Source: Planctomycetota bacterium
GTDB taxonomy: Bacteria; Planctomycetota; Phycisphaerae; Phycisphaerales; UBA1924
DNA: 64,000 bases
Direction of reading: 5' to 3'
NCBI GenBank assembly: GCA_039819165.1
Contig: JBCBSM010000001.1
Span: 682,001-746,000, forward strand
Part shown: positions 18,148-45,161 of the stretch, in pieces
Layout: every line of letters begins with the position of its first letter
How positions within the stretch are numbered: the first letter of the stretch is position 1
The notes under the pieces: generated by a model
What the model was told of the DNA's origin: nothing
Databases searched by the model: none
Seen by the model: the letters and a program-made list of their open reading frames with translations, nothing else
Program-made: the position numbers and the translations under genes

Positions 18148-20196
18148 ACACCGTCCTCGCACGCCTCCGCGTCACAATCGGTTGGGTATGGAAGCACGCC
18201 GCGGCGGGAATCGCAGTCGCGCTCATTATCGCGGCGCTGGTCATCGGCTATCGGATTGGTCGTCCCGCCCCAGAGCCCGCAACTGAACTGGCGGCGGAGG
18301 CCCACGAGCACGGCGAAGACACGAGCCAACCGCAGATGTACACATGCTCGATGCATCCGTCTGTTCGCCTGCCTGACCCAGATGCTAAGTGCCCGATCTG
18401 CTTCATGGACCTCATCCCGGTCACCGCGGATGAGGGCGAGGGGAATGAACTGCGTGTCAGGATGAGCGAGGCGGCCGCCGCGCTCAGCCGGATCGAGACA
18501 GCCCCGGTCGGCCGGTTCTTCCCGACGGCCGAGGTGCGGATGTATGGCAAGGTCACCTACGACGAAACTTCGGTGGCGCGACTGACGGCGTACTTCCCGG
18601 GGCGGATCGAGCGGTTGTTTGTCAACTATGTCGGTGTTCCGGTGTCGGCCGGAGACCACATGGCCGAGGTGTACAGCCCGGAGTTGCTCGCGGCTTTCGA
18701 GGAACTTCGACAGGTTGCCTCTGCGGCCACGGATACAAGCTCCGGCAGCGAACTGCTGCGATCCGCCACGCGGGACACATTGGCGGCGGCACGCGAGAAG
18801 CTGCGGTTGTTTGGTCTGACCTCGGAGCAGATTATCGCGGTCGAGGAAGGCCGCTTCGAATCGGATCACCTGCCCATCTATGCCCCGATCGGAGGCGTTG
18901 TCACGCATCTGGCGGTGCGCGAGGGGGACTATGTGCAGACAGGCGATCCGATCGCGACGGTCGCCGACCTGTCTCGCCTGTGGGTGGATATGGAGGCGTA
19001 CGAGTCGCAGCTCCCGCTGCTCCGCTGGGGGCAGCCCGTGACGTTCACGGTCGAGGCGCACCCGGGCGATGTGTTCGAGGGACGCGTCTCGTTCATCGAG
19101 CCGATGGTCGACGAGAGGACCAGGACCGCAGCGGTACGGATCGCGGTGGAGAACGAGCGGAATCGGCTCAAGCCGGGGATGTTCGCGTCCGGCACCGTCC
19201 GTACCCGCATCGCGAAGGATGGTGCGGTTGTCAACGATGAACTCGCCGGACGCTGGGTGAGCCCGATGCACCCGACCGTCGTCAAGGACGGGCCGGGGCA
19301 GTGCGACATCTGCGGGATGGACCTGGTGCCCGCCGAATCGCTCGGCGTGGTCGGCAATCCGAGCGCGGCCGAGGAGCCCCTGGTCATCCCCCGCTCGTCG
19401 GTCCTCTTCACCGGGACGCGATCGGTGGTGTATGTCGAGGTGCCCGATGCCGACAAGCCAACCTACGAGGGGAGGGTGATCGTGCTCGGGCCGCGGGCGG
19501 GCGATTTCTACATCGTCCGCGAAGGCTTGAGCAGAGGCGAACGCGTGGTGGTCAATGGCGCGTTCCGGATCGACAGCGCCATGCAGATCGCGGCAAAGCC
19601 GAGCATGATGACGCCCGCCGGTGGCGGTGGGAGCGACCCGCACGCAGGGCACGGCGGCACATCCGACGGCGCGATGCCGACCATGCCCGAGCGCGTCAGC
19701 GTGCCCGACAGCTTCGTGTTCGCGCTCAAGCCGATCTACGCGGCGTACCTCGACGCCCAGGAGGCGCTCGCGGCGGACGACCTCGGCGGGTTTTCGCAGG
19801 CGGCCGCGGACCTCCGAACCGCGATCGGCTTCGTCGAAGAGGCCGGACTGGTCGGCGAACCGCTCGGCGAGTGGCGGCGGGCCGCGGCCCGGCTGCGTGT
19901 CGAGCCGGGTATCACAGATATTGAGATCGCTCGGACTAAGTTCGAGGGCATGAGCGAGGCGGTCATCGCGCTCCAGCGTCGTTTCGGGCACCGGGGGAGC
20001 GAAGAATGGCAACTCGCGCACTGCCCTATGGCTTTCGATAACCAGGGAGCCGACTGGCTCCAGCGCGGCGAACAGATCAACAACCCATACTTCGGCGCAA
20101 GCATGCTCCGGTGCGGGGAGATCCGCGAGTCCTTTGAGCCGCTCAACGGTGACGCTATGAACAGCGCGACCGAGGGAAGCAGCGAGGGTCACGATC

Positions 20197-29172: not shown

Positions 29173-30525
29173 CTACTTCTTCACCGACTGCCCCGGCCCT
29201 GTAGCCTCGGTCAGCGCGCCGCTCTGGCTACTCGCGGTCGCCGAGAAGCCCGGGCCGCTGCTGGAGGCGGAGGCGCTGGCCGAGCCGCTGGAGGAGCCCG
29301 AGGAGGAGAAAGAAGAGGAGCCGCTCGATTTGCCGGATGAGCCCGAGCCGCTGCTGGAGCCCGATCCGGAGCCGGATGCGGACGCCGAGATGCCGCTGCC
29401 CGATCCGGAGGAGGCGGCGGTGGCGGGCAGGTCGTTGTGGACCCAGACGCCCTCGGCCAGCAGGGTGTTGGTGCCGGGGATGTGGATGGCCACGGTCCGC
29501 GTTGGGGCTTCCACCCGATCGACCCGTTCGACTGGTTCCTCATTGAACTGGTCGTCGACCAGGCGGTCGCCTGGTTGGACGAACTCGGCGGATGCGAAGC
29601 CCCACTCGTCGCCGCGGCGGATGAGGATCGGGTGCTCGGGCGTGGCCTTGATGCGGCGGTTGATGACGACGAAGCCTTGGTGCTCGCCCAGGGTCACGCT
29701 GGCGACGCGGGCCTCGGTGCGTTCGGCACCGTGCAGGCCGTGGTGGGACAGCCAGTTGTACTGGGCGCGGTACGGCACATCGACCTCGAGGCCGGGGACG
29801 CGGACGGAATCCACCAAATCACCGGGCTTCAGGTTCTCGATGGGCGTCATGCGGCCGTCGGCCAGGCGGACGAGGGTGCCGAAGAGGAGGCAGTTGCCGC
29901 TCGACCCTCCCCCGGAGGAGCCGCCACCACCCGACGACCCACCGCCCCCGGACGAACCGCCTCCGCCGCTGGAGCCACCGCCGCCAGAGGATCCGCCTCC
30001 GCCCGACGACCCACCGCCCCCGGACGAACCGCCACCGCCGGAGGAACCCCCGCCGCCCGAAGATCCGCCCCCGCTGGAGCCGCCGCCGGATGAGCCACCC
30101 GAGGAGCCGCCGGACGAACCGCCCGACGACTGCCCGCTGCTGAAGCCCGAGCTGCCGGCCGACGAACTCGCGCCGCCGCTCGATGAGCCGCCGGATCCGC
30201 TTCCGCTCGACTCGGTGGGTTGGCTGGAGGCGGTCTCGGTCGGGGTGCCGCTGCCTGACTGCGTGGTGCCGCTATCGGTGGTGAACGCGTCGGTCGTGTA
30301 GGTCGTTAGCGTGGGCGTGCCACCGGGCCCGGTGGTGTAGATCACGTCGCCGGTGGTCGAATAACTCGACGGCTCGCTCGACGGCATCGACGGCGACGAC
30401 GAGGGCGTCTCGCTGGGCGCGGACCCCGAGCCCGACGAGTACTGGCTCGACCCTCCGCCCTGCGGCGGCGTACCTGTCGCCCAGACGGGGATGTAGAGGT
30501 AGTAGCGCGTCGGGCCGTCGCTCAT
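29173..30525 (-). CDS. Gly/Ser-repeat protein with a Hint (bacterial intein-like) domain
   Basis: A 450-residue protein that overlaps the DUF115-like gene by 4 bases. Residues 20-215 are low-complexity Ser/Gly, including about eight GGGGSS repeats. A Hint domain fills about 216-371: it starts GNCLLFGTLVRLADG (Cys218 as the splice-site nucleophile), has TPEHPI (301-306) as the central block and ends LLAEGVWVHN-D (H369, N370). The residue after Asn is Asp, not Cys/Ser/Thr, so splicing is unlikely but C-terminal cleavage is possible, as in bacterial intein-like (BIL) domains. A Ser/Gly-rich tail follows. Position at the end of the tail operon suggests an exposed virion part. Confidence 0.8.
   Translation of the reverse strand: MSDGPTRYYLYIPVWATGTPPQGGGSSQYSSGSGSAPSETPSSSPSMPSSEPSSYSTTGDVIYTTGPGGTPTLTTYTTDAFTTDSGTTQSGSGTPTETASSQPTESSGSGSGGSSSGGASSSAGSSGFSSGQSSGGSSGGSSGGSSGGGSSGGGSSGGGGSSGGGGSSGGGGSSGGGGSSGGGGSSGGGGSSGGGGSSGGGGSSGGGSSGNCLLFGTLVRLADGRMTPIENLKPGDLVDSVRVPGLEVDVPYRAQYNWLSHHGLHGAERTEARVASVTLGEHQGFVVINRRIKATPEHPILIRRGDEWGFASAEFVQPGDRLVDDQFNEEPVERVDRVEAPTRTVAIHIPGTNTLLAEGVWVHNDLPATAASSGSGSGISASASGSGSGSSSGSGSSGKSSGSSSFSSSGSSSGSASASASSSGPGFSATASSQSGALTEATGPGQSVKK
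29878..30129 (-). repeat. Tandem 18-base repeat encoding GGGGSS units
   Basis: Repeats of about 18 bases encode GGSS, GGGSS and GGGGSS units directly before the Hint domain. They lie inside the Hint gene, are near-identical at DNA level, and are likely to vary in copy number by slippage. Confidence 0.8.
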
Positions 30526-31445
30526 CGGGCGGCCTCCTTTGCGGGCGTCTTCTCGGTCGACGGATTCGGCTCGTACCAGCCCTGCGAACTGACGCGCTTG
30601 GCGCACTCGGCGCTCGCCGCCGCCACCGCGTCCTCGTAGGTCATCGTCTCGAACGCCCGCAGCTCGCTGCCCGGTGAGCAGTTGACCACGCGGAACTTGT
30701 GCTTGTCGAAGTGCGGCCGCAGGGCTTCGAAACGCCGGGCCAGCGAATCGTAGAGCACGTTGTTGTGGCGAATGGCGTCCTTGGAGCGATACTCGTCAAA
30801 GGCGTAGCGCCGGTCCGGGGCCATCTTGAAGTCGCAGCCGAGCAGGTACACCGTTCCGAAGCCCAGATAGTGCAGCAGGCGCAGGGCGACGAGCATCACG
30901 CTCCGCTTGCCGACGATCCCGAGTGAGTCCGCGGTCTTGCCGTCGTTGCCCCAGGGGATCGAGTCCCCGGTCAGGAACCGCTCGTGGTCGAAGTGGTCGG
31001 CCCGGCGGAAGAACAGCACGCTCGGCATCTGGTGGACCTTGAAGGCGCTGTCGCGCATCGTGACGCCCCCCTGACGATCAATCGTCTGGATGCGCAGCCG
31101 CTTGGACCACATGCACGTCGGGACGATTTTGAGGATGCCCGGATCCTTCCAGCCGGTGTCGATGAACCGGCCCGGGTCGTCCACGCAGGTCCATAGCGTC
31201 GGCCGGTGGATCGTCCACGAGTTGTTCACGCCCATGGTGACGATGCCCCGCCGATTGAGCAGCGAGAGATCGACCTGGTTGAGTGACGGACCGGAGAGGA
31301 TCAGGAACGCCGAGCGGCCGCGGTAGAACCGCGCGAGCGAGACCGAGTCAAAGTCGGCGGTATACAGGCGCAGCCCGTCCCGGGCGGGCCGGCGTGACTT
31401 GAGCCCGTGCTGGAGCGCCGCGATGTCCGACTGGTTCTCGCGCAT
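30522..31445 (-). CDS. DUF115/MptE-like or glycosyltransferase-like protein of the tail operon
   Basis: A 307-residue protein starting at MRENQSD. The motif FLILSGPSLNQVDLSLL resembles the GPSL nucleotide-binding turn of DUF115/sialyltransferase-type proteins, and GFGTVYLLGCDFKMAPDRRYAFDE matches the conserved LxGCD loop. The start overlaps the methyltransferase stop by 1 base (TGATG). Proteins of this kind act on sugars or pterins; in a phage a role in modifying surface glycans is plausible. The exact substrate is unknown. Confidence 0.65.
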   Translation of the reverse strand: MRENQSDIAALQHGLKSRRPARDGLRLYTADFDSVSLARFYRGRSAFLILSGPSLNQVDLSLLNRRGIVTMGVNNSWTIHRPTLWTCVDDPGRFIDTGWKDPGILKIVPTCMWSKRLRIQTIDRQGGVTMRDSAFKVHQMPSVLFFRRADHFDHERFLTGDSIPWGNDGKTADSLGIVGKRSVMLVALRLLHYLGFGTVYLLGCDFKMAPDRRYAFDEYRSKDAIRHNNVLYDSLARRFEALRPHFDKHKFRVVNCSPGSELRAFETMTYEDAVAAASAECAKRVSSQGWYEPNPSTEKTPAKEAAR

Positions 31446-33872: not shown

Positions 33873-35861
33873 TCATGCGAAAGTCAGGCCGCCACTCTTG
33901 GCGGCGTCGGCGAGTTGGCGGGTGTGCTTGGCGGTCTGCTCGGTGGCCTTGGCCGTCCGCTCGGCGACGGCGTCGTCGGAGGCCAGCCCCTGCACGGCGC
34001 TGGCGTTGAAGGTGCCGCGCACCGAGATGCCCTCGGCCACGAGGTCGCCGATGCCGCGCAGGCGGTCCTCGAACTCGGCCAGCAGGTTGCGCGGGCGGCT
34101 GTCGGGTTCGGCCTCGGCTTCTTCGCGACGCCTGCGGGCCTCTTCGATGGCATCGTCGAGCCGCTTGCGGGCGGCTTCCAGCTCGCGCTGCGCATCGGTG
34201 ACCCGCTCATCGGTCTGGGCATCGAGCGCCTTCTGGGCGTCCTCGTACTGCTTGCCGATCTCCGACAGCGTGGCGTCGTTGAGATCGCTGGATCGGTCGC
34301 GCTCGGATGATCGCCGGGCCTCGCGGTCGGCCAGGGCCGCGCGGGTGCGGTCGTCGATCTCGCCAAGCCGCTGCTCGAGCTGCTCGTCCACGGCCTTCTT
34401 GGCCGCTTCGACATCCAGTCCATCGTCGAACAGCCCCTGGATCTCCAGCATCCGCTTGGCGACGAACGACGAGGCCGACTCCCATGCCTTCTGGAACCCG
34501 CCCGTGAAGCGTGACCAGGTCTTGGAGAGGAACGCCGTCGTCTCGATCCAGCCGACCTCGAGCGCGTGCAGCACGATCTGGGCGGCCGCCAGCGCGCCGT
34601 ACCACATCGACTGGGCGGTCGAGACGAAGAACCGCCGTGCCTCGAGCCACGCCGAGTTCAACGCCGCCACGCCCTTCTGCCAGATGACCTTCAGCGACAG
34701 CCAGAGGATCTCGGCCGCCAGCGCGATGTCGCCAGCGGCGAGGGCGTCGGAGATGCCGCGGGTGACCTTGGAAACCCAATCGCGCAAGCGCGTGAACTGC
34801 TCCATGAGCCAAGCGAGCGCCTCGCCGCCCTTGCCTGAGGTGACCAGCAGCGTGCCGCCGAGCCCGACGACCGCCGCCACCACCAGCCCGATGGGCGAGA
34901 GCAGCGCGCCCAGGGCCGCTCCGACGATGCCCAGCGCTGTGCCGACGCCGGTGATGATGCTCGCCAGCAGGCCGAAGGTCGCCGCGACACCCGCCACCAG
35001 CACGCCCAGCCCGATCAGGACCACGCCCGCCAGCGCGACCGCGGCGGCGACCTTGAGCGCCGAGACGACCACGGCCCGGTTCTGGCGGATCCAGTCCGAT
35101 GCGCCGACGATGACCCGGGTGATGCGCTCGGCCAGGTCCTGGAGCACCGGCGCAAGCGCCGAGCCGATCACGAACACGCCCTGCTTGATGACCCGCCAGA
35201 GGATGTTGAGCGTGTCGTTGAGCTCCGCGGCGTCCTTGGCGGTTTGCGTTGAGACGGTCAGTCCGAGCCGACGGGCCTGCTCCTGAAGTTCCTCGATACC
35301 CGCGGCCCCGCCCTCCATGAGCGGCAAGAGTTGCGAGCCGGCGCGGCCGAAGATCTGCATCGCGATCGCGGCGCGTCGGCTTGGGTCTTCGATCTGGCTC
35401 AGCCGCTCGGCGATGAGCTTGAACTGCGCCTCGGGCGAGAGCCCATCGAGGTCGGCCATCGTCAGCCCGAGCGTGGCGAACGCGTCCGTCTGGGTGGAAA
35501 GCCCGCGTCCGAGGTCGTTGATCGACCGCTGCATGGACCGCACACCCTTCTCGAAGGTCGCGAGGTCCGCGCCTGACTGCTCGGCCGCGAAGCCGAGCTC
35601 GCTGAGCGATTCGACGCTCACGCCGGTGCGCTTGCTCATCTTGTCCAGCGTGTCGCCCATGGCCGTGAACACCTTGACCGTGCTCAGCAGCGAGGCGACC
35701 GCGCCGGCCCCGATCGCAGTCAGCCTGGTGCCGACGCTGCGGAGCCCGTCCCCGAAGGCCTTGAGCCGCTTCTGGGCGCGCCGCAGCCCGGCCGACAGCT
35801 TGTCGCTGACGCCCAGTTCGACGAACGCCCGCCCAGCCCGGATGCCTCGGGTGTCGGCCAT
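33873..35861 (-). CDS. Tail tape measure protein
   Basis: A 662-residue protein with the usual tape-measure make-up: an N-terminal region with LSAGLRRAQKRLKAFG and VKVFTAMGDTLDKMSKRTGVSVESLSELGFAAEQSG (the PhageMin_Tail signature), a central block of hydrophobic helices (about 265-335, VVLIGLGVLVAGVAATFGLL onward), and a C-terminal coiled-coil rich in Glu/Arg (about 520-620). It sets tail length and is threaded through the tail tube. The gene's ATG lies 1 base after the gp10-like stop. It is short for the class, predicting a short siphovirus tail of about 100 nm (inference using roughly 1.5 angstrom per residue). Confidence 0.9.
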   Translation of the reverse strand: MADTRGIRAGRAFVELGVSDKLSAGLRRAQKRLKAFGDGLRSVGTRLTAIGAGAVASLLSTVKVFTAMGDTLDKMSKRTGVSVESLSELGFAAEQSGADLATFEKGVRSMQRSINDLGRGLSTQTDAFATLGLTMADLDGLSPEAQFKLIAERLSQIEDPSRRAAIAMQIFGRAGSQLLPLMEGGAAGIEELQEQARRLGLTVSTQTAKDAAELNDTLNILWRVIKQGVFVIGSALAPVLQDLAERITRVIVGASDWIRQNRAVVVSALKVAAAVALAGVVLIGLGVLVAGVAATFGLLASIITGVGTALGIVGAALGALLSPIGLVVAAVVGLGGTLLVTSGKGGEALAWLMEQFTRLRDWVSKVTRGISDALAAGDIALAAEILWLSLKVIWQKGVAALNSAWLEARRFFVSTAQSMWYGALAAAQIVLHALEVGWIETTAFLSKTWSRFTGGFQKAWESASSFVAKRMLEIQGLFDDGLDVEAAKKAVDEQLEQRLGEIDDRTRAALADREARRSSERDRSSDLNDATLSEIGKQYEDAQKALDAQTDERVTDAQRELEAARKRLDDAIEEARRRREEAEAEPDSRPRNLLAEFEDRLRGIGDLVAEGISVRGTFNASAVQGLASDDAVAERTAKATEQTAKHTRQLADAAKSGGLTFA

Positions 35862-36298: not shown

Positions 36299-36763
36299 TC
36301 ACGCGGGTGTACCTCCGCTGGGCACCACGCGGCCTTCCTTCAGCCCCTTGTTGAACGACGCCTCCTTCTCCTTGCGGAGTCGCCCTGCGCCGATGAACAG
36401 TCCCGCCAGACCAGTCAGCGCCGGCAGAGCCGGGCCCGCGATGGGCACGCCCGCGAGCGTGGGGCCGAAGTCGTCGAGGGCCGAGAGGGTGATCTGCCCC
36501 AGGAGACCGCGGATCTCGCCGCCGCGTTCGATCGACGCCTTCCACTGGGCCCCGACCCGCTGGGTGTCCTCGAACCAGGCCCGGTACTCGGCCTCGGCCT
36601 CGTTGAGCGTGGTGGTGCGCGGCAGGCCGCGGGTCTGCTGGATGCCGCTCGGCGTCTTGACCTTGACGACGTCGCCCAGGTCAAAGCCGGCGCACGCGCC
36701 GAGCCCGAGCGAAAGCATCACCACGCCGAAGCCGAAGGCCAGATGCTTGGGATCAATCTTCAC
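36299..36763 (-). CDS. Phage lipoprotein
   Basis: A 154-residue lipoprotein starting at GTG with AAGGAGG 7 bases upstream. The signal ends LGLGAC (Cys24). A second hydrophobic Gly-rich segment (VPIAGPALPALTGLAGLFIG, about 105-125) could be membrane-inserted, and the C-terminus is basic. It overlaps the tail chaperone gene by 11 bases. Phage lipoproteins in tail operons may act in lysis (spanin-like) or in superinfection exclusion; neither is proven here. Confidence 0.6.
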   Translation of the reverse strand: MKIDPKHLAFGFGVVMLSLGLGACAGFDLGDVVKVKTPSGIQQTRGLPRTTTLNEAEAEYRAWFEDTQRVGAQWKASIERGGEIRGLLGQITLSALDDFGPTLAGVPIAGPALPALTGLAGLFIGAGRLRKEKEASFNKGLKEGRVVPSGGTPA

Positions 36764-36983
36764 GCGTGCCTCCTTGCTGCTTCTGGTTCCTGATGAACAC
36801 GTCCTTGAGCACCGACACGGGGGCCGGGATGACTTGGGCTCGCTTGTCAGCGGCCCGGGCGAACGGGTCGAAGTCGCCGGGCCGGAACGGGCGGGTCTTC
36901 TTGGGGTTGCGCTGGGTGTTGGCCACCAGCGCCATGACCGAACTCGTCCGGCTCCACTCGTCGCGCTGGCGGGCCTCGGCCAT
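36753..36983 (-). CDS. Tail assembly protein T segment, probably made by -1 frameshift
   Basis: A 76-residue open frame starting at ATG 36983, but the frame is open further upstream to the C6 run at 37007. Read through, it gives LTLRELVAMAEARQRDEW before the conserved SSVMALVANTQRNPKKTRPF and DFDPF, typical of siphophage T-type tail chaperones. Joined to the 172-residue G protein by a -1 shift it would give a protein of 256 residues. The 76-residue form from ATG may also be made. Confidence 0.75.
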   Translation of the reverse strand: MAEARQRDEWSRTSSVMALVANTQRNPKKTRPFRPGDFDPFARAADKRAQVIPAPVSVLKDVFIRNQKQQGGTRED

Positions 36984-37003
36984 CGCGACCAGCTCTCGCA
37001 GCG

Positions 37004-37015
37004 TCAGGGGGGCTG
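37004..37015 (-). other. Likely programmed -1 ribosomal frameshift site (CAG CCC CCC TGA)
   Basis: On the minus strand the G gene ends CAG CCC CCC TGA (37015-37004). Slipping back by one base on the six C's (37012-37007) reads CTG ACG CTG CGA, i.e. L-T-L-R, directly into the T frame. G/G-T frameshifting is conserved in lambda-type tails. The classical heptamer is imperfect here (G CCC CCC). Confidence 0.7.
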
Positions 37016-37522
37016 GATCGATGCCGAGGACGCCGGCGCACTGCCAGACGAGCCGCCAGCCGCCGCCTCGACCGTCGGCGGCACCGCTTCGAGCACCGCC
37101 CGCTCCAGCGCCCCGCCGTCGATCAGCTCGTCGATCCGGCGTTCCACCACGTCCCGGGCCTTGTCCATCACCTCGCGTGTGGCCTTGAGCACCCGCCCGA
37201 GGTTGGCCCGGTCCCTCGAGCTCGGGCAGAAATCCACCAGTTCCTCCAGGAGCGCCGCCGTGGCGTGCTCGATCGCGTCCCCGGCCATCGATGCGCCGAA
37301 CGTCTCGTCAGTGACCTGACGCTCATCCGCCTGTGGCTTGCACGCGGCGTAGATCACGTCGCACAAGAGGACGGGATCGCGCACGAGCTTCTCGATGAGC
37401 CCGTTTGACCCTTCGAGCACCTCCATGAGGTCGACGCCCGCGAGCCCACGCACGCGTTTGATCGCCGCGACGGTGATCTCGACGGTCCACTCGCGGCCCT
37501 GGTTGTCCTTGAACGTGCGCAT
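37004..37522 (-). CDS. Tail assembly chaperone (G-like)
   Basis: A 172-residue protein located between the tail tube gene and the T-segment, the standard place for the tail chaperone. It is helical, with VTIAAIKRVRG-type opening (TVEITVAAIKRVRGLAGVDL) and a flexible Ala/Gly/Ser/Pro-rich end (AAAGGSSGSAPASSASIQPP). The chaperone coats the tape measure protein during tail assembly. The Pro codons at the end form the frameshift site. Confidence 0.75.
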   Translation of the reverse strand: MRTFKDNQGREWTVEITVAAIKRVRGLAGVDLMEVLEGSNGLIEKLVRDPVLLCDVIYAACKPQADERQVTDETFGASMAGDAIEHATAALLEELVDFCPSSRDRANLGRVLKATREVMDKARDVVERRIDELIDGGALERAVLEAVPPTVEAAAGGSSGSAPASSASIQPP

Positions 37523-37538
37523 CGATGCCTCCGATCCG

Positions 37539-37967
37539 TTATCCGCCGATCCAGCTCGGGGCCGTGTCCGAGTAGGTCACCTTGGCCGTCACCGAGACGG
37601 TGATGGCCTCCTCGAGCGCCTCGTTGCGGCTGAAGTTCGTGATCGAGAAGTCCGCCTGCAGCCCCTGGCCGTCGGCCTCGTCGAGGATCTGCAGCCCGAT
37701 CAGGTCGTTGTTGAAGAACGCGTTCTTGATGGCGGTGAACCCCGCGTCGGCGGTATCCCAGACCATCTCCCACTCGACGCTCGCCTCCTTGAGCGTGGCG
37801 ACCGTCGCGCGCCAGCCCGCGTTGGCGCGGGTGGTCACGTCGGCCTCGCCCGCTTCGAGGCTGAGGGTCACGTCCCTGACGTTGTCCATCGCTGTCCACG
37901 AGCCGGCCCCGCCCTGGCCGCCGACCAGGTAGAGCAGCTTGGCTTCCATGCCGAGCTTGATTGCCAT
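37539..37967 (-). CDS. Major tail tube protein
   Basis: A 142-residue beta-rich protein: MAIKLGMEAKLLYLVGGQGG opening, VRDVTLSLEAGEADVTTRANAGWRATVATLKEASVEWEMVWD in the middle, and FSITNFSRNEALEEAITVSVTAKVTYSDTAP at the end. This pattern (alternating strands, EADVTTR) is that of the small tail tube proteins of Mu/SPP1-like and related phages. It precedes the chaperone and tape measure genes, as expected. Confidence 0.85.
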   Translation of the reverse strand: MAIKLGMEAKLLYLVGGQGGAGSWTAMDNVRDVTLSLEAGEADVTTRANAGWRATVATLKEASVEWEMVWDTADAGFTAIKNAFFNNDLIGLQILDEADGQGLQADFSITNFSRNEALEEAITVSVTAKVTYSDTAPSWIGG

Positions 37968-39485: not shown

Positions 39486-41501
39486 TCATGCCTCACCCTT
39501 GCTCTTCACGCCGCCACGCGGGTCCTGCAGCGCCACGCCGAAGTCGTGGTAGCCGCGCATCTGGATCCCCAGCCGGTTGAAGCTCTGCTCGGCGGTCTCG
39601 ATGGTCGGGGCTTCTTGTCCGTTGAGGAACGCCACCTCGATGACCGGCAGGTCCGCCGGTGAGGCGAGCATGTACCAGGCTTTGCTCGATTGGCCCGGGT
39701 AGGCCGCGTTGCCCAGGTAGCGGCTGACCTCGACGCGGAATTTGCCCTGGTGTGGGTTGGTCACCGGGTACTTGGCGCTCGAGGTGTTGTCGCGCAGTTC
39801 CATGCTCTTGAAGAGCTGGCTGCCCAGCGCCGACAGCGCTGTGGGCACCAGCAGCACCTGCGGCATCACCCCCAGCGGCTTGCCGTCGGAGTCCACCTGG
39901 TCCATGAAGGCGACCTCGGCCTTGGTCAGCCCGTCGATTGACAGGGCGGTGTCCGCGCCGGCGAGGTAGTTGTTGTTGCCCGCCGTGTAGAAGCCCGAGT
40001 TCGCCAGGAAGGTCTTCCAGAAGATGTCGTTGATGGTCTTGCCCGAGCCCGCGCCGAGCTTGCGGGGCACGCTGGTGATCGCGCCCAGATCGTCGTTGAT
40101 GATGTCGGTGCGATCGATCGACAGCATGAGGCCATACGTCTCGGCCCGGTTGGTGTAGGTCTCCTCGCCCAGCGTGCCGTGCTTGATCTCGCCTCCGGGC
40201 GCGATGCGCTCGTACTGGTCGTTGCCCGTCAGGCGGTAGCTGGTGACGGCCTTGAAGTCGGTCACGCTGCGCACCGCGGTGATGTTCCGCCAGGTGCGTT
40301 CGACGCTGAAGAAGCCTTCGAGCAGGAACTTGTTGGCGACGTTCGAGAGGATGCCGCCGATGCTGATCGTGCTGTTGGACGCTTCGATGCCCCTTCCGAA
40401 CGCGGCATCCATCACGCCGTGCCAGTCGCGGAACGTCCGGCCGGTGTAGCCGTTGGCCCAAGCGGCGTGGAGCAGCAGTTCCTGGAGCCCGATCGACTGC
40501 CCGAAAGCCCGCGTCGCGGCTTCCAGATCCTGCTCCGCACAGTGTCGCTCGGGAGTGGTCAACCGGCCCGAGAGCACGCACGCGGCTTCGAGAACCCGCT
40601 GGTTGACCGCCGGCGCGGCGGGGGCGTGAATGGCAGGGGCCTTGGGTCGGCTGGCCCGCAGGACCTCCAGTTCGGTCTTGGTCGCGTCCCAGCCCTCGCG
40701 GATCGAGCGGGCCTCGATCTCGGGGTGCTGGCCCGCGCACAGCCGTCGCACGGCGGCGATCCGCTCGCTCTCGGCGGCGATCTGCTGCCGCATGGTCTGC
40801 ACCGGGTCGGTGATCGCGGGCTGGTTCGCTTCGGGCGCAGGGGTGCCCGCGCCCTGGACGGGATCGGATGCATCGTCCCCCGCGGCAGCGCCGGCGGCGA
40901 TGGTCGCCGAGGTCGAGCCGTCAGCCCCGAGGTCGACGAAGCTGATCTCGCCGAGCGTGGACTTGCGCACGATGTTCAAGGGGCCGGCGACCTCGCGTCC
41001 GTTGACGGTCGCGGTTTGGTTCTCGCGGAGGAACTCGAACGCCTCGACGCTCGCGCCCACCGATGCCTGCCAGGGGAATCCGTTGCGCGCTGAGACCACG
41101 ACCTCGCGGGCCGCGGGCGTGTCGCGGGAGATCATCCCGGTGGCCACCAGCCGCCCCTCTTCGACCATCACCTGGTCGGTGTGCCCGACGCCCGCCGTCG
41201 CGTCGTGCCCGAACCGGATCGGCCGCGACGGGGAGGGGATCGCCAGCCCGGCCAGGTCGATCACGACCGGGTGCCGCCAGCCGGCGACGCGCATCGGCCC
41301 GCCGCTGTAGGCCATCATCCGGAACCGCGGCAGAGGAGCGGCAGCGCCGCCGTCGCCGCTGACCGTGTCAGCGCCCTCGATCTCGAACTCCGCCTGCGCG
41401 GTGAGCGCCAGCGTCCTGGGGTGCGAGCCGGGGTTTGAGTGGGCAAGGGCAGTGGGCTGCGCGGGAGCAGCGGACGCCTGGATCATGCGGGGGTGTGACA
41501 T
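39486..41501 (-). CDS. Fused prohead protease-scaffold-major capsid protein
   Basis: A 671-residue protein with three parts. Residues about 60-195 resemble an S78/U35-type prohead protease: GHD with H99, and QASVG with S147, are likely catalytic residues. Residues about 200-330 are Ala/Glu-rich and helical, as in a scaffold delta-domain. From about 330 a HK97-fold capsid follows (RTFRDWHGVMDAAFGRG, SISIGGILSNVANKFLLEGFFSVERTW, KTFLANSGFY), near the Mu gpT type. One gene thus makes protease, scaffold and capsid. It sits between portal and decoration protein genes. Confidence 0.85.
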   Translation of the reverse strand: MSHPRMIQASAAPAQPTALAHSNPGSHPRTLALTAQAEFEIEGADTVSGDGGAAAPLPRFRMMAYSGGPMRVAGWRHPVVIDLAGLAIPSPSRPIRFGHDATAGVGHTDQVMVEEGRLVATGMISRDTPAAREVVVSARNGFPWQASVGASVEAFEFLRENQTATVNGREVAGPLNIVRKSTLGEISFVDLGADGSTSATIAAGAAAGDDASDPVQGAGTPAPEANQPAITDPVQTMRQQIAAESERIAAVRRLCAGQHPEIEARSIREGWDATKTELEVLRASRPKAPAIHAPAAPAVNQRVLEAACVLSGRLTTPERHCAEQDLEAATRAFGQSIGLQELLLHAAWANGYTGRTFRDWHGVMDAAFGRGIEASNSTISIGGILSNVANKFLLEGFFSVERTWRNITAVRSVTDFKAVTSYRLTGNDQYERIAPGGEIKHGTLGEETYTNRAETYGLMLSIDRTDIINDDLGAITSVPRKLGAGSGKTINDIFWKTFLANSGFYTAGNNNYLAGADTALSIDGLTKAEVAFMDQVDSDGKPLGVMPQVLLVPTALSALGSQLFKSMELRDNTSSAKYPVTNPHQGKFRVEVSRYLGNAAYPGQSSKAWYMLASPADLPVIEVAFLNGQEAPTIETAEQSFNRLGIQMRGYHDFGVALQDPRGGVKSKGEA

Positions 41502-43427: not shown

Positions 43428-43483
43428 GTGCCAATTCTGTCGCTTTATGGGCGAATTGACGATATAGTTGCCAGTATTGGCAC
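43428..43483 (+). promoter_or_regulatory. Operator/promoter of the hipBA cassette
   Basis: TATAGT (43463-43468) is a good -10 box. Immediately after it TGCCA (43469-43473) and TGGCA (43478-43482) form a 5-4-5 dyad, and a second GTGCCAAT (43428-43435) repeats the ATTGGCAC half-site (43476-43483) in inverse orientation 40 bases upstream. Two paired sites are typical of autoregulated HipB operators. A TTGACG at 43456 is an alternative -35. Confidence 0.55.
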
Positions 43484-43497
43484 TTTACGGACGCCCT

Positions 43498-43866
43498 ATG
43501 GACACCCCCAAGTACATGACGGATACGGCGGCTTTAACCGCGATCGGCGAACGGATCGCGCAGCACCGCCTTCGGCTCGACTGGACACAGGCCCAGCTCG
43601 CGAAGGAGGCCGGTGTCTCCAAACGCACGGTGGTCAGATTGGAGGGAGGAGAATCCACCCAGCTGACCAACCTGATCAGGATACTCCGCGCGCTCGACCT
43701 GCTCGCCAACATCGATGAGCTGCTGCCACCGCCAACTCCGAGTCCGCTCGAACTGCTGCGATCGAAGGAGAAGCGACGCAAGAGAGCGAGCGGACGCGCA
43801 GAGTCCGATGGCGAGAAGGGATCCGAGGAGTGGACTTGGGGCGACGAGGAAGGGACTGAATCATGA
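43498..43866 (+). CDS. HipB-like antitoxin/transcriptional repressor
   Basis: A 122-residue protein with ATG 43498 (also possible 43516; no SD visible). A Cro/C1-type HTH is clear: IAQHRLRLDWTQAQLAKEAGVSKRTVVRLEGGESTQLTNLIRILRALD. The C-terminal half is charged and Pro-rich, likely to contact HipA. It overlaps HipA by 4 bases (ATGA), the classical toxin-antitoxin coupling. As in HipBA, the antitoxin likely represses the promoter together with HipA. Confidence 0.8.
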   Translation: MDTPKYMTDTAALTAIGERIAQHRLRLDWTQAQLAKEAGVSKRTVVRLEGGESTQLTNLIRILRALDLLANIDELLPPPTPSPLELLRSKEKRRKRASGRAESDGEKGSEEWTWGDEEGTES

Positions 43867-45161
43867 CCGTCGCCGAAGTCCGTATGTGGGGGCGGCAGAT
43901 CGGTGCGGTCACGGTCGACGGGCCAGGTGGCGTGGCCTCGTTCCAATACACCGAACCGTTCCGCCGGAGCGGCATCGAAGTTGCGCCCTTAATGATGCCC
44001 CTCTCCTCCAAGGTCTACCGGTTCCCGGGTCTCGCCGAACGATCGTTTCACAGGTTGCCAGGAATGCTCGCAGACTCGCTTCCCGACAAGTTCGGTAACG
44101 CCGTCATCGACGCCTGGTTGGCTGCCCAAGGGCGTTTGCCATACGAGATTGATGCAGTCGAGCGCCTGTGCTATACCGGCAAACGGGGCATGGGCGCACT
44201 CGAGTTCGAACCCGCCGAGGGACCACAAGCCGATGAAGCCGTGCCTTTGGAAGTCGCGGCACTCGTGCGGCTGGCATCGCAAGTGCTCACGGATCGGGAG
44301 CGCTTCAGCACGAACTGGGAAGATGGCCAAGAAGCGGCTGCACTACGGCAGATCCTGCAAGTCAGCGCTTCCGCGGGTGGTGCGCGAGCAAAGGCACTCA
44401 TCGCCTGGAACCCAACCTCCAACGAGATCCTCTCCGGACAGATCACAGCCCCCCCGGGTTTTGAGTACTGGCTCCTCAAGTTTGATGGGGTGTCGAACAA
44501 CCGCGACAAAGAGCTTGCCGACCCGCAGGGGTACGGCGCGATCGAGTACGCATACTCGCTCATGGCACGAGCCGCGGGTATCCGCATGGCCGACTGTCGC
44601 CTGCTCGAGGAAAACGGCCGCCGACACTTCATGACCCAACGCTTTGATCGCACCAACGGGGGCGACAAGCTCCACATGCAATCGCTCGGGGCGCTCGGGC
44701 ACTTCGACTTCAACGATGCGGGGTCGCACTCCTACGAGCAGGCGATCATGGTCATTCGGCGGCTTGGGCTGTCCATGGACGACATCGAGGAGCAGTTCAG
44801 GCGTATGGCCTTCAACATCGTGGCTCGTAATCAGGACGACCACGTCAAGAACATCGCGTTCCTGATGGACAAGAAAGGGAAATGGTCGCTATCTCCGGCA
44901 TTTGACGTGTCCTACAGCTACAACCCCTCAGGGGCATGGACTTCCACTCACCAGATGTCGATGAACCGCAAACGCGACGGGTTTACACGCGAGGACTTCC
45001 GGGCCTTCGGTGACACCGCATCAATGAAACGCGGGCGAGCGGATTCCATCCTGGACGAGGTTATTGATGCGGTGAAGCAGTGGCCTGACTTCGCCGACGA
45101 GGCGAGGGTCAGCGAAAAGTGGAATAATGATATTCGCTCGACTCATCGTGTCTCGTTCTGA
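43863..45161 (+). CDS. HipA-like serine/threonine kinase toxin
   Basis: A 432-residue protein of normal HipA length. The N-terminal HipA_N region (about 1-105) contains GGVASFQYTEPFRRSGIEVAPL, the middle has ASAGGARAKALIAWN, the P-loop-like and autophosphorylation region, and NQDDHVKN (323-330) carries the catalytic D325/D326 with N330, followed by LSPAFDVSYSYNPSGAW. E. coli HipA phosphorylates GltX; the target here is unknown. It is a toxin in a plus-strand cassette between terminase and portal genes of the minus-strand phage. Confidence 0.85.
   Translation: MTVAEVRMWGRQIGAVTVDGPGGVASFQYTEPFRRSGIEVAPLMMPLSSKVYRFPGLAERSFHRLPGMLADSLPDKFGNAVIDAWLAAQGRLPYEIDAVERLCYTGKRGMGALEFEPAEGPQADEAVPLEVAALVRLASQVLTDRERFSTNWEDGQEAAALRQILQVSASAGGARAKALIAWNPTSNEILSGQITAPPGFEYWLLKFDGVSNNRDKELADPQGYGAIEYAYSLMARAAGIRMADCRLLEENGRRHFMTQRFDRTNGGDKLHMQSLGALGHFDFNDAGSHSYEQAIMVIRRLGLSMDDIEEQFRRMAFNIVARNQDDHVKNIAFLMDKKGKWSLSPAFDVSYSYNPSGAWTSTHQMSMNRKRDGFTREDFRAFGDTASMKRGRADSILDEVIDAVKQWPDFADEARVSEKWNNDIRSTHRVSF

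Follow-up and report, generated by a model that had tools for sequence, protein, structure and literature searches.

A putative −1 frameshift site lying unusually early in the lambda-type G/G-T tail chaperone genes of a family of little-studied phages

In phage lambda, the tail protein G exceeds the fusion protein G-T by about 30:1. The two are tail assembly chaperones of a known kind, as set out in PMC5009743. In PMC10274946, the mean distance between frameshift site and stop codon is 26 nt in one set of phages and 36 nt in another. The dnaX-type −1 signal, according to PMC3711429, consists of a Shine-Dalgarno-like stimulator, a slippery site and a hairpin, and the same paper gives efficiencies of 6% and 7% for two HK97-like tail chaperone frameshift genes. 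Here we consider a prophage locus that, on comparative grounds, is best read as having a −1 frameshift of the lambda G/G-T type at a site placed unusually early.

The window, by which we mean the whole 64,000-nt stretch of DNA analysed, carries on its minus strand overlapping G and T genes, flanked by a tail tube gene upstream of G (37539..37967, minus strand; PF06199, E 1.2e-12) and a tape measure gene downstream of T (33873..35861, minus strand; PHROG tape measure families, best named E 8.7e-39). G (37004..37522, minus strand) is called as an open reading frame for a tail assembly chaperone-like protein of 172 aa, with its TGA stop at 37004-37006. The T-like reading is in the −1 frame, where 101 aa counted from a conserved Trp, together with the stop, make up the T domain (36753..37058, minus strand). 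The same module also contains genes for a lambda-family portal (E 1.9e-59) and a gpA-type terminase (E 6.7e-21). The region has some further features of its own. Major head protein and head protease are fused in a single 671-aa ORF (39486-41501, minus strand; PHROG 'major head and protease protein', E 8.6e-70), and a hipBA-like pair, comprising an HTH gene and a HipA-like gene (HipA_C, E 1.6e-50), sits in the opposite orientation between the portal and terminase genes (43468-45161, plus strand). A Gly/Ser-repeat protein at 29173-30606 (minus strand) has a weak Hint-domain match that falls below the cut-off (PF13403, E 0.0013). At 36299-36763 (minus strand), a lipoprotein-like ORF of 154 aa (LGACAGFDLGDVVKVKTP...) has a GTG start that overlaps the end of T; Pfam and PHROG searches with this ORF gave no matches, and a similar reading occurs in L005 and L041.

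For comparison, T and G profiles were run over 248 loci drawn from genomes, IMG/VR contigs and named genomes (up to 80 listed matches for each of the latter two). Loci were anchored by these profile searches; regular expressions had left 5 of 49 sequences and 24 of 88 loci unanchored. Seven loci without a G match were left out, and the remaining 241 were reduced to 119 non-redundant loci by discarding loci whose identity over 260 nt exceeded 85% and loci with insufficient flank. The sequence of the slip site played no part in choosing them. In every one of the 241 loci for which the profile searches found both parts, the frame of T is −1 relative to that of G. Among the 111 loci that extend 1000 nt or more upstream, 105 have a tail tube homologue 5' of the site, encoded on the same strand. 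At least 577 of the 600 viral stretches examined encode a T relative, and about 60 of the best 80 named T relatives bear planctomycete names in their record titles, many of them Phycisphaerales, to which the window's host probably belongs as well. One relative, L245, is found in a cultured host, Victivallis vadensis DSM 14823. A single 7.4 Mb genome, G352, gave 11 matches to T (L073-L077, L079 and further places), which suggests several related prophages in one genome. Searches of 50,697 phage records with the window's T, the T of L246 and the window's G returned no match at E<=1, and we found no printed description of this frameshift in planctomycete phages in the open-access literature.

The window's G matches no Pfam or PHROG family at E<=0.01. 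In its predicted model (mean pLDDT 89.9), a helix spanning residues 82-98 ends at the residue of the proposed slip and is followed by helices 102-135 and 138-146. Its best fold matches among viral models are weak; they include entries named tail assembly chaperone, at E 0.026 and 0.033, and none reaches E<=0.001. Comparison with solved structures gave no significant fold match. The one sequence match to G, 8etq (k-cTRP5), was taken as chance, no stretch of it passing alone. PF06223 (Phage_tail_T) is matched by 31 of the 34 aligned T members at E<=0.01 (best 1.4e-6), the window's own T falling under the Pfam cut-off of 25.9; the T structure gave nothing at E<=0.001 against viral models.

An earlier, sequence-only reading had proposed that G is joined to T by a lambda-type −1 shift on a C6 run at the end of G (37007..37012, minus strand). 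Its account of the bases is accurate, since G does end CAG CCC CCC TGA (minus strand 37004-37015) and the −1 frame, open from 37307 to 36753, runs past C6 without a stop into the lambda-T-like domain. The lambda-type fusion it inferred also agrees with the −1 relation common to the 241 loci and with the position downstream of the tail tube gene, but C6 itself is an unlikely place for the slip. A shift on C CCC UGA would have the P-site CCC re-pairing perfectly one base back, with the UGA adjoining the run in the window, and a scan of L001 from −140 to +52 around Trp, which excluded the heptamer (at −174 there), lists C6 as its sole re-pairing site. Against this, C6 precedes the G stop in only 20 of 241 loci, or 5 of the 119 non-redundant ones; rather than being conserved among homologues, it occurs in the closest relatives plus a few others, and in L035 and L036, close relatives with 96% identity across the T query, its place is taken by GCC TCC CTG. 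Selection on the T frame begins 44 bases upstream of the run, and we consider this placement of the shift highly unlikely. C6 runs are frequent in the window (15 on the plus strand and 19 on the minus strand, overlapping matches counted). The T-like reading itself begins 5' of C6, at GGGWRLVWQCAGVLGIDPAPLTLREL, close to which most T matches in relatives begin too, so that a join at C6 drops conserved T residues, and the resulting fusion would lack the conserved WRLVWQCAGVLGIDPAP. Nor do the residues added by the shift improve the match to the T family, as had been claimed: PF06223 gives 18.2 bits for the extended piece and 19.0 from the ATG, both below the cut-off and both aligned only past that ATG.

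That the family alignment covers only T residues beyond this ATG, Met 36983, is one of the points that would suit T being mainly a separate protein, made by internal initiation or reinitiation at this Met or at a non-AUG codon. Met 36983 is the first ATG, GTG or TTG of the window's open −1 frame, it is conserved in 29 of 30 loci, and G's UGA is 23 nt upstream of it. However, it lies 75 nt after Trp, and it is at Trp that selection on the T frame starts; the loci have no start codon in common just 5' of Trp, where a non-AUG start was also considered and rejected, no codon being shared. A separate T would moreover leave both a conserved heptamer and the stop-free T frame upstream, described below, without explanation. 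We therefore regard a mainly separate T as improbable, although some may be made from Met 36983 as a minor extra product.

The site that we propose for the shift is U UUC UGC (37226..37232, minus strand), encoding F98 and C99 of G and situated about 215 bases 5' of C6, at the end of G's compact domain. Across the 119 loci, it is placed at the Phe that closes ...LLEELVDF... of G, and the heptamer reads T_TTT_TTC in 66, T_TTC_TGC in 25 (the window class) and T_TTT_TCC in 19, with T_TTC_TTC, T_TTT_ACC and T_TTT_TTT in two each and T_TTC_TCC, G_TAC_TGC and G_TTC_TTC in one each. U_UUY is present in 117, the exceptions being L027 (G_TAC_TGC) and L156 (G_TTC_TTC). At 18,818 other G-frame positions of the same loci, TTTTTTC does not occur at all, T_TTY occurs 34 times and XXXYYYZ 25 times. 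In 117 of 119 loci, T is the last base of the codon preceding Phe, against 22.2 expected from codon usage in the same genes with kinship ignored. Codon-choice deviation, likewise calculated with kinship ignored, reaches 3.37 for this codon, falls to 0.93 and 0.97 over the two that follow and is mostly 0.1-0.5 elsewhere, with further peaks inside the proposed hairpin at +3 (0.94), +5 (1.06) and +11 (0.83). An X XXY YYZ heptamer on which both tRNAs re-pair is found in 68 of 119 loci (TTTTTTC 66, TTTTTTT 2), and the window's TTTCTGC is not of this form. Between the site and the G stop are 123-273 nt, with a median of 198 over the 119 loci and 225 in the window.

Between the heptamer and Trp, the T frame is free of stops in 118 of 119 loci, compared with 54 expected under synonymous shuffling that ignores kinship, so that the −1-frame stop in relatives which the sequence-only reading named as evidence against a fusion occurs in one of the 119. 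The third frame of this stretch contains a stop in 103 loci, as does the T frame in 70 loci over an equal stretch upstream of the heptamer. In seven loci (L016, L026, L066, L080, L081, L084 and L246), the T frame has a TGA immediately next to the heptamer, and thus the shift can be no further upstream in these. The sole exception among the 119 is L200, which has a T-frame TGA soon after an intact TTTTTTC and before Trp; a decayed prophage, an error or a later shift are options for this locus.

The pattern of substitution changes at Trp. From the heptamer to Trp, substitutions follow G, with 52% on its third codon position, and from Trp to the usual G stop 49% are on the third codon position of T (71 disjoint pairs, kinship ignored). 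Variation over the latter stretch amounts to 0.95, 0.74 and 1.15 bits at T positions 1, 2 and 3 in the 119 loci, and a set of 30 loci has the same extremes, position 3 varying most and position 2 least. As judged from these patterns, comparison shows the coding constraint to be that of G up to Trp and that of T after it, and the third-position excess from Trp onward implies that the ribosomes translating T have entered its frame by that point. The G stop is at Trp+52 in 87 of 119 loci and earlier, at +7 to +37, in 20 (Trp being placed by profile, with a few offsets reflecting small insertions). At Trp+52, the stop overlaps conserved Leu-Thr codons of T; in the window's CTGAC, the TGA is inside CTG ACG.

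The linker that the T frame encodes before Trp is unconserved as protein, and this, along with overlap substitutions that follow G, could be expected if the −1 shift took place anywhere between the heptamer and Trp, without a fixed motif. Such a shift, though, would not require an open T frame all the way to the heptamer, and near Trp there is no slippery pattern shared among the loci, on which count a slip close to the conserved Trp was rejected as well. We give a motif-free shift very little credence. Hops or a +2 shift were rejected on inspection by eye.

The proposed heptamer is accompanied by candidate stimulatory elements on both sides. Upstream, Shine-Dalgarno-like GGAGGAA (37241..37247, minus strand) has its GGAGG core ending 10 nt before the heptamer, and the 3' end of the host 16S carries CACCTCCTTT. 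Of the 119 loci, 86 have a five-base SD core between −24 and −9, usually starting at −15 or −14, compared with 66.1 expected from synonymous resampling (sd 4.5, maximum 77 among 300, kinship ignored); the excess is modest because the Glu codons alone yield 66 of 119. These Glu codons deviate in opposite directions, the first being GAG 83 to GAA 8 and the second GAA 57 to GAG 36, against a background of GAG 733 to GAA 301. Downstream, the proposed hairpin would pair a 5' arm, GCTCGAGG (37214..37221, minus strand), that begins 4 nt past the heptamer with a 3' arm, CCTCGGGC (37195..37202, minus strand). Structure in 25-nt windows at +4 and +6 goes beyond synonymous resampling (mean z −0.85 and −0.88, SE 0.09, kinship ignored), and at offsets further away the same test gives z between −0.27 and +0.10. 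Split by class, z at +4/+6 is −1.60/−2.28 for the window class, −1.39/−0.46 for U_UUU_UCC and −0.41/−0.47 for U_UUU_UUC, the last reaching −0.84/−0.93 in 40-nt windows. Every one of the 25 window-class loci retains all 8 hairpin pairs, and the stem is so nearly invariant that covariation is silent. A dnaX-type arrangement, with an SD-like element about 10 nt upstream and a hairpin a few nt downstream, is thus present and enriched over synonymous controls. SD elements and hairpins act on ribosomes, which argues for ribosomal slippage over slippage of RNA polymerase at the T run or an error in sequencing. A run of T6 or longer in 68 of 119 loci would lend itself to polymerase slippage, but the window class has T3 only, and an identical −1 relation in 241 loci excludes random error, making this the most far-fetched of the alternatives.

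Judging from sequence comparison, ribosomes very probably undergo a programmed −1 frameshift at U UUC UGC within G, so that a 256-aa G-T fusion is made as a minor product next to the 172-aa G. What comparison of the loci brings out is the constant −1 relation, the conserved site with its codon choice, the stop-free T frame and the switch of constraint, and we infer the slip, its rate, its P-site mechanism and the roles of its products. GGAGGAA and the GC-rich hairpin 4 nt downstream would delay the ribosome, the P-site tRNA-Phe would slip from UUC to UUU, and translation would continue in the −1 frame. The product would consist of G 1-98, a 57-aa linker (37059..37229, minus strand) read over G's C-terminal coding, and the 101 aa of T; with so early a site, it would lose the C-terminal helices of G and carry a Gly/Arg/Pro-rich linker before T. 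Across the 119 loci, the linker is 23-78 aa long (median 48) and comprises 22% Gly, 15% Arg, 13% Ala and 11% Pro, and the window's is probably disordered. By analogy with lambda gpG/gpGT, G would bind the tape measure protein and T would recruit the tail tube protein. We favour a slip of the P-site tRNA-Phe from UUY to UUU, aided by the SD-like element and the hairpin, because only the P-site Phe codon is common to nearly all loci, whereas the A-site codon varies (UUC, UGC, UCC, ACC). The window's UUUCUGC is not X XXY YYZ and its A-site codon re-pairs poorly, so a one-tRNA slip must be assumed there; at U_UUU_UUC loci, a tandem slip would be equally likely. We also lean, by a little, towards a broader picture in which the G/G-T switch offers two alternative C-termini, helices in frame 0 or a disordered tether to T in the −1 frame, both encoded by about 150-200 shared bases, with the window class working on a single P-site tRNA-Phe slip and its stronger hairpin offsetting the weak second half of the heptamer, all within a large, little-cultured clade of tailed phages.

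Such a conserved signal is probably common to a large family of little-studied phages, as far as the sampled loci indicate. This would place a conserved recoding signal in a large family of phage loci whose tested members are without a match in the phage records searched. With the site some 200 nt before the G stop, a search near the stop would miss it, and T would be annotated in truncated form, starting at an internal ATG. One-tRNA and two-tRNA slippage can be tested directly against each other across the natural variants U_UUU_UUC, U_UUU_UCC, U_UUC_UGC and U_UUU_ACC.

Compared with the described systems, this locus shares with the HK97-like genes covered in PMC3711429 a frameshift in a phage tail assembly chaperone. 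The three parts of the dnaX-type signal recur here in the same order, but the slippery site there is AAA_AAA_G, in an unrelated gene, and here U_UUU_UUC, U_UUU_UCC or U_UUC_UGC. Against the means of 26 and 36 nt before the stop in the two phage sets of PMC10274946, the median here is 198 nt. Lambda, too, shifts near the 3' end of G, at another slippery sequence, and its fusion keeps nearly all of G, whereas the fusion proposed here, made 225 nt before the stop in the window, would be without G's C-terminal helices, and G here is without a sequence family match. The likeness to lambda G/G-T lies in the arrangement: two overlapping genes after the tail tube gene, with T in the −1 frame of G and a T domain probably of the Phage_tail_T kind, in one module with a lambda-type portal and terminase.
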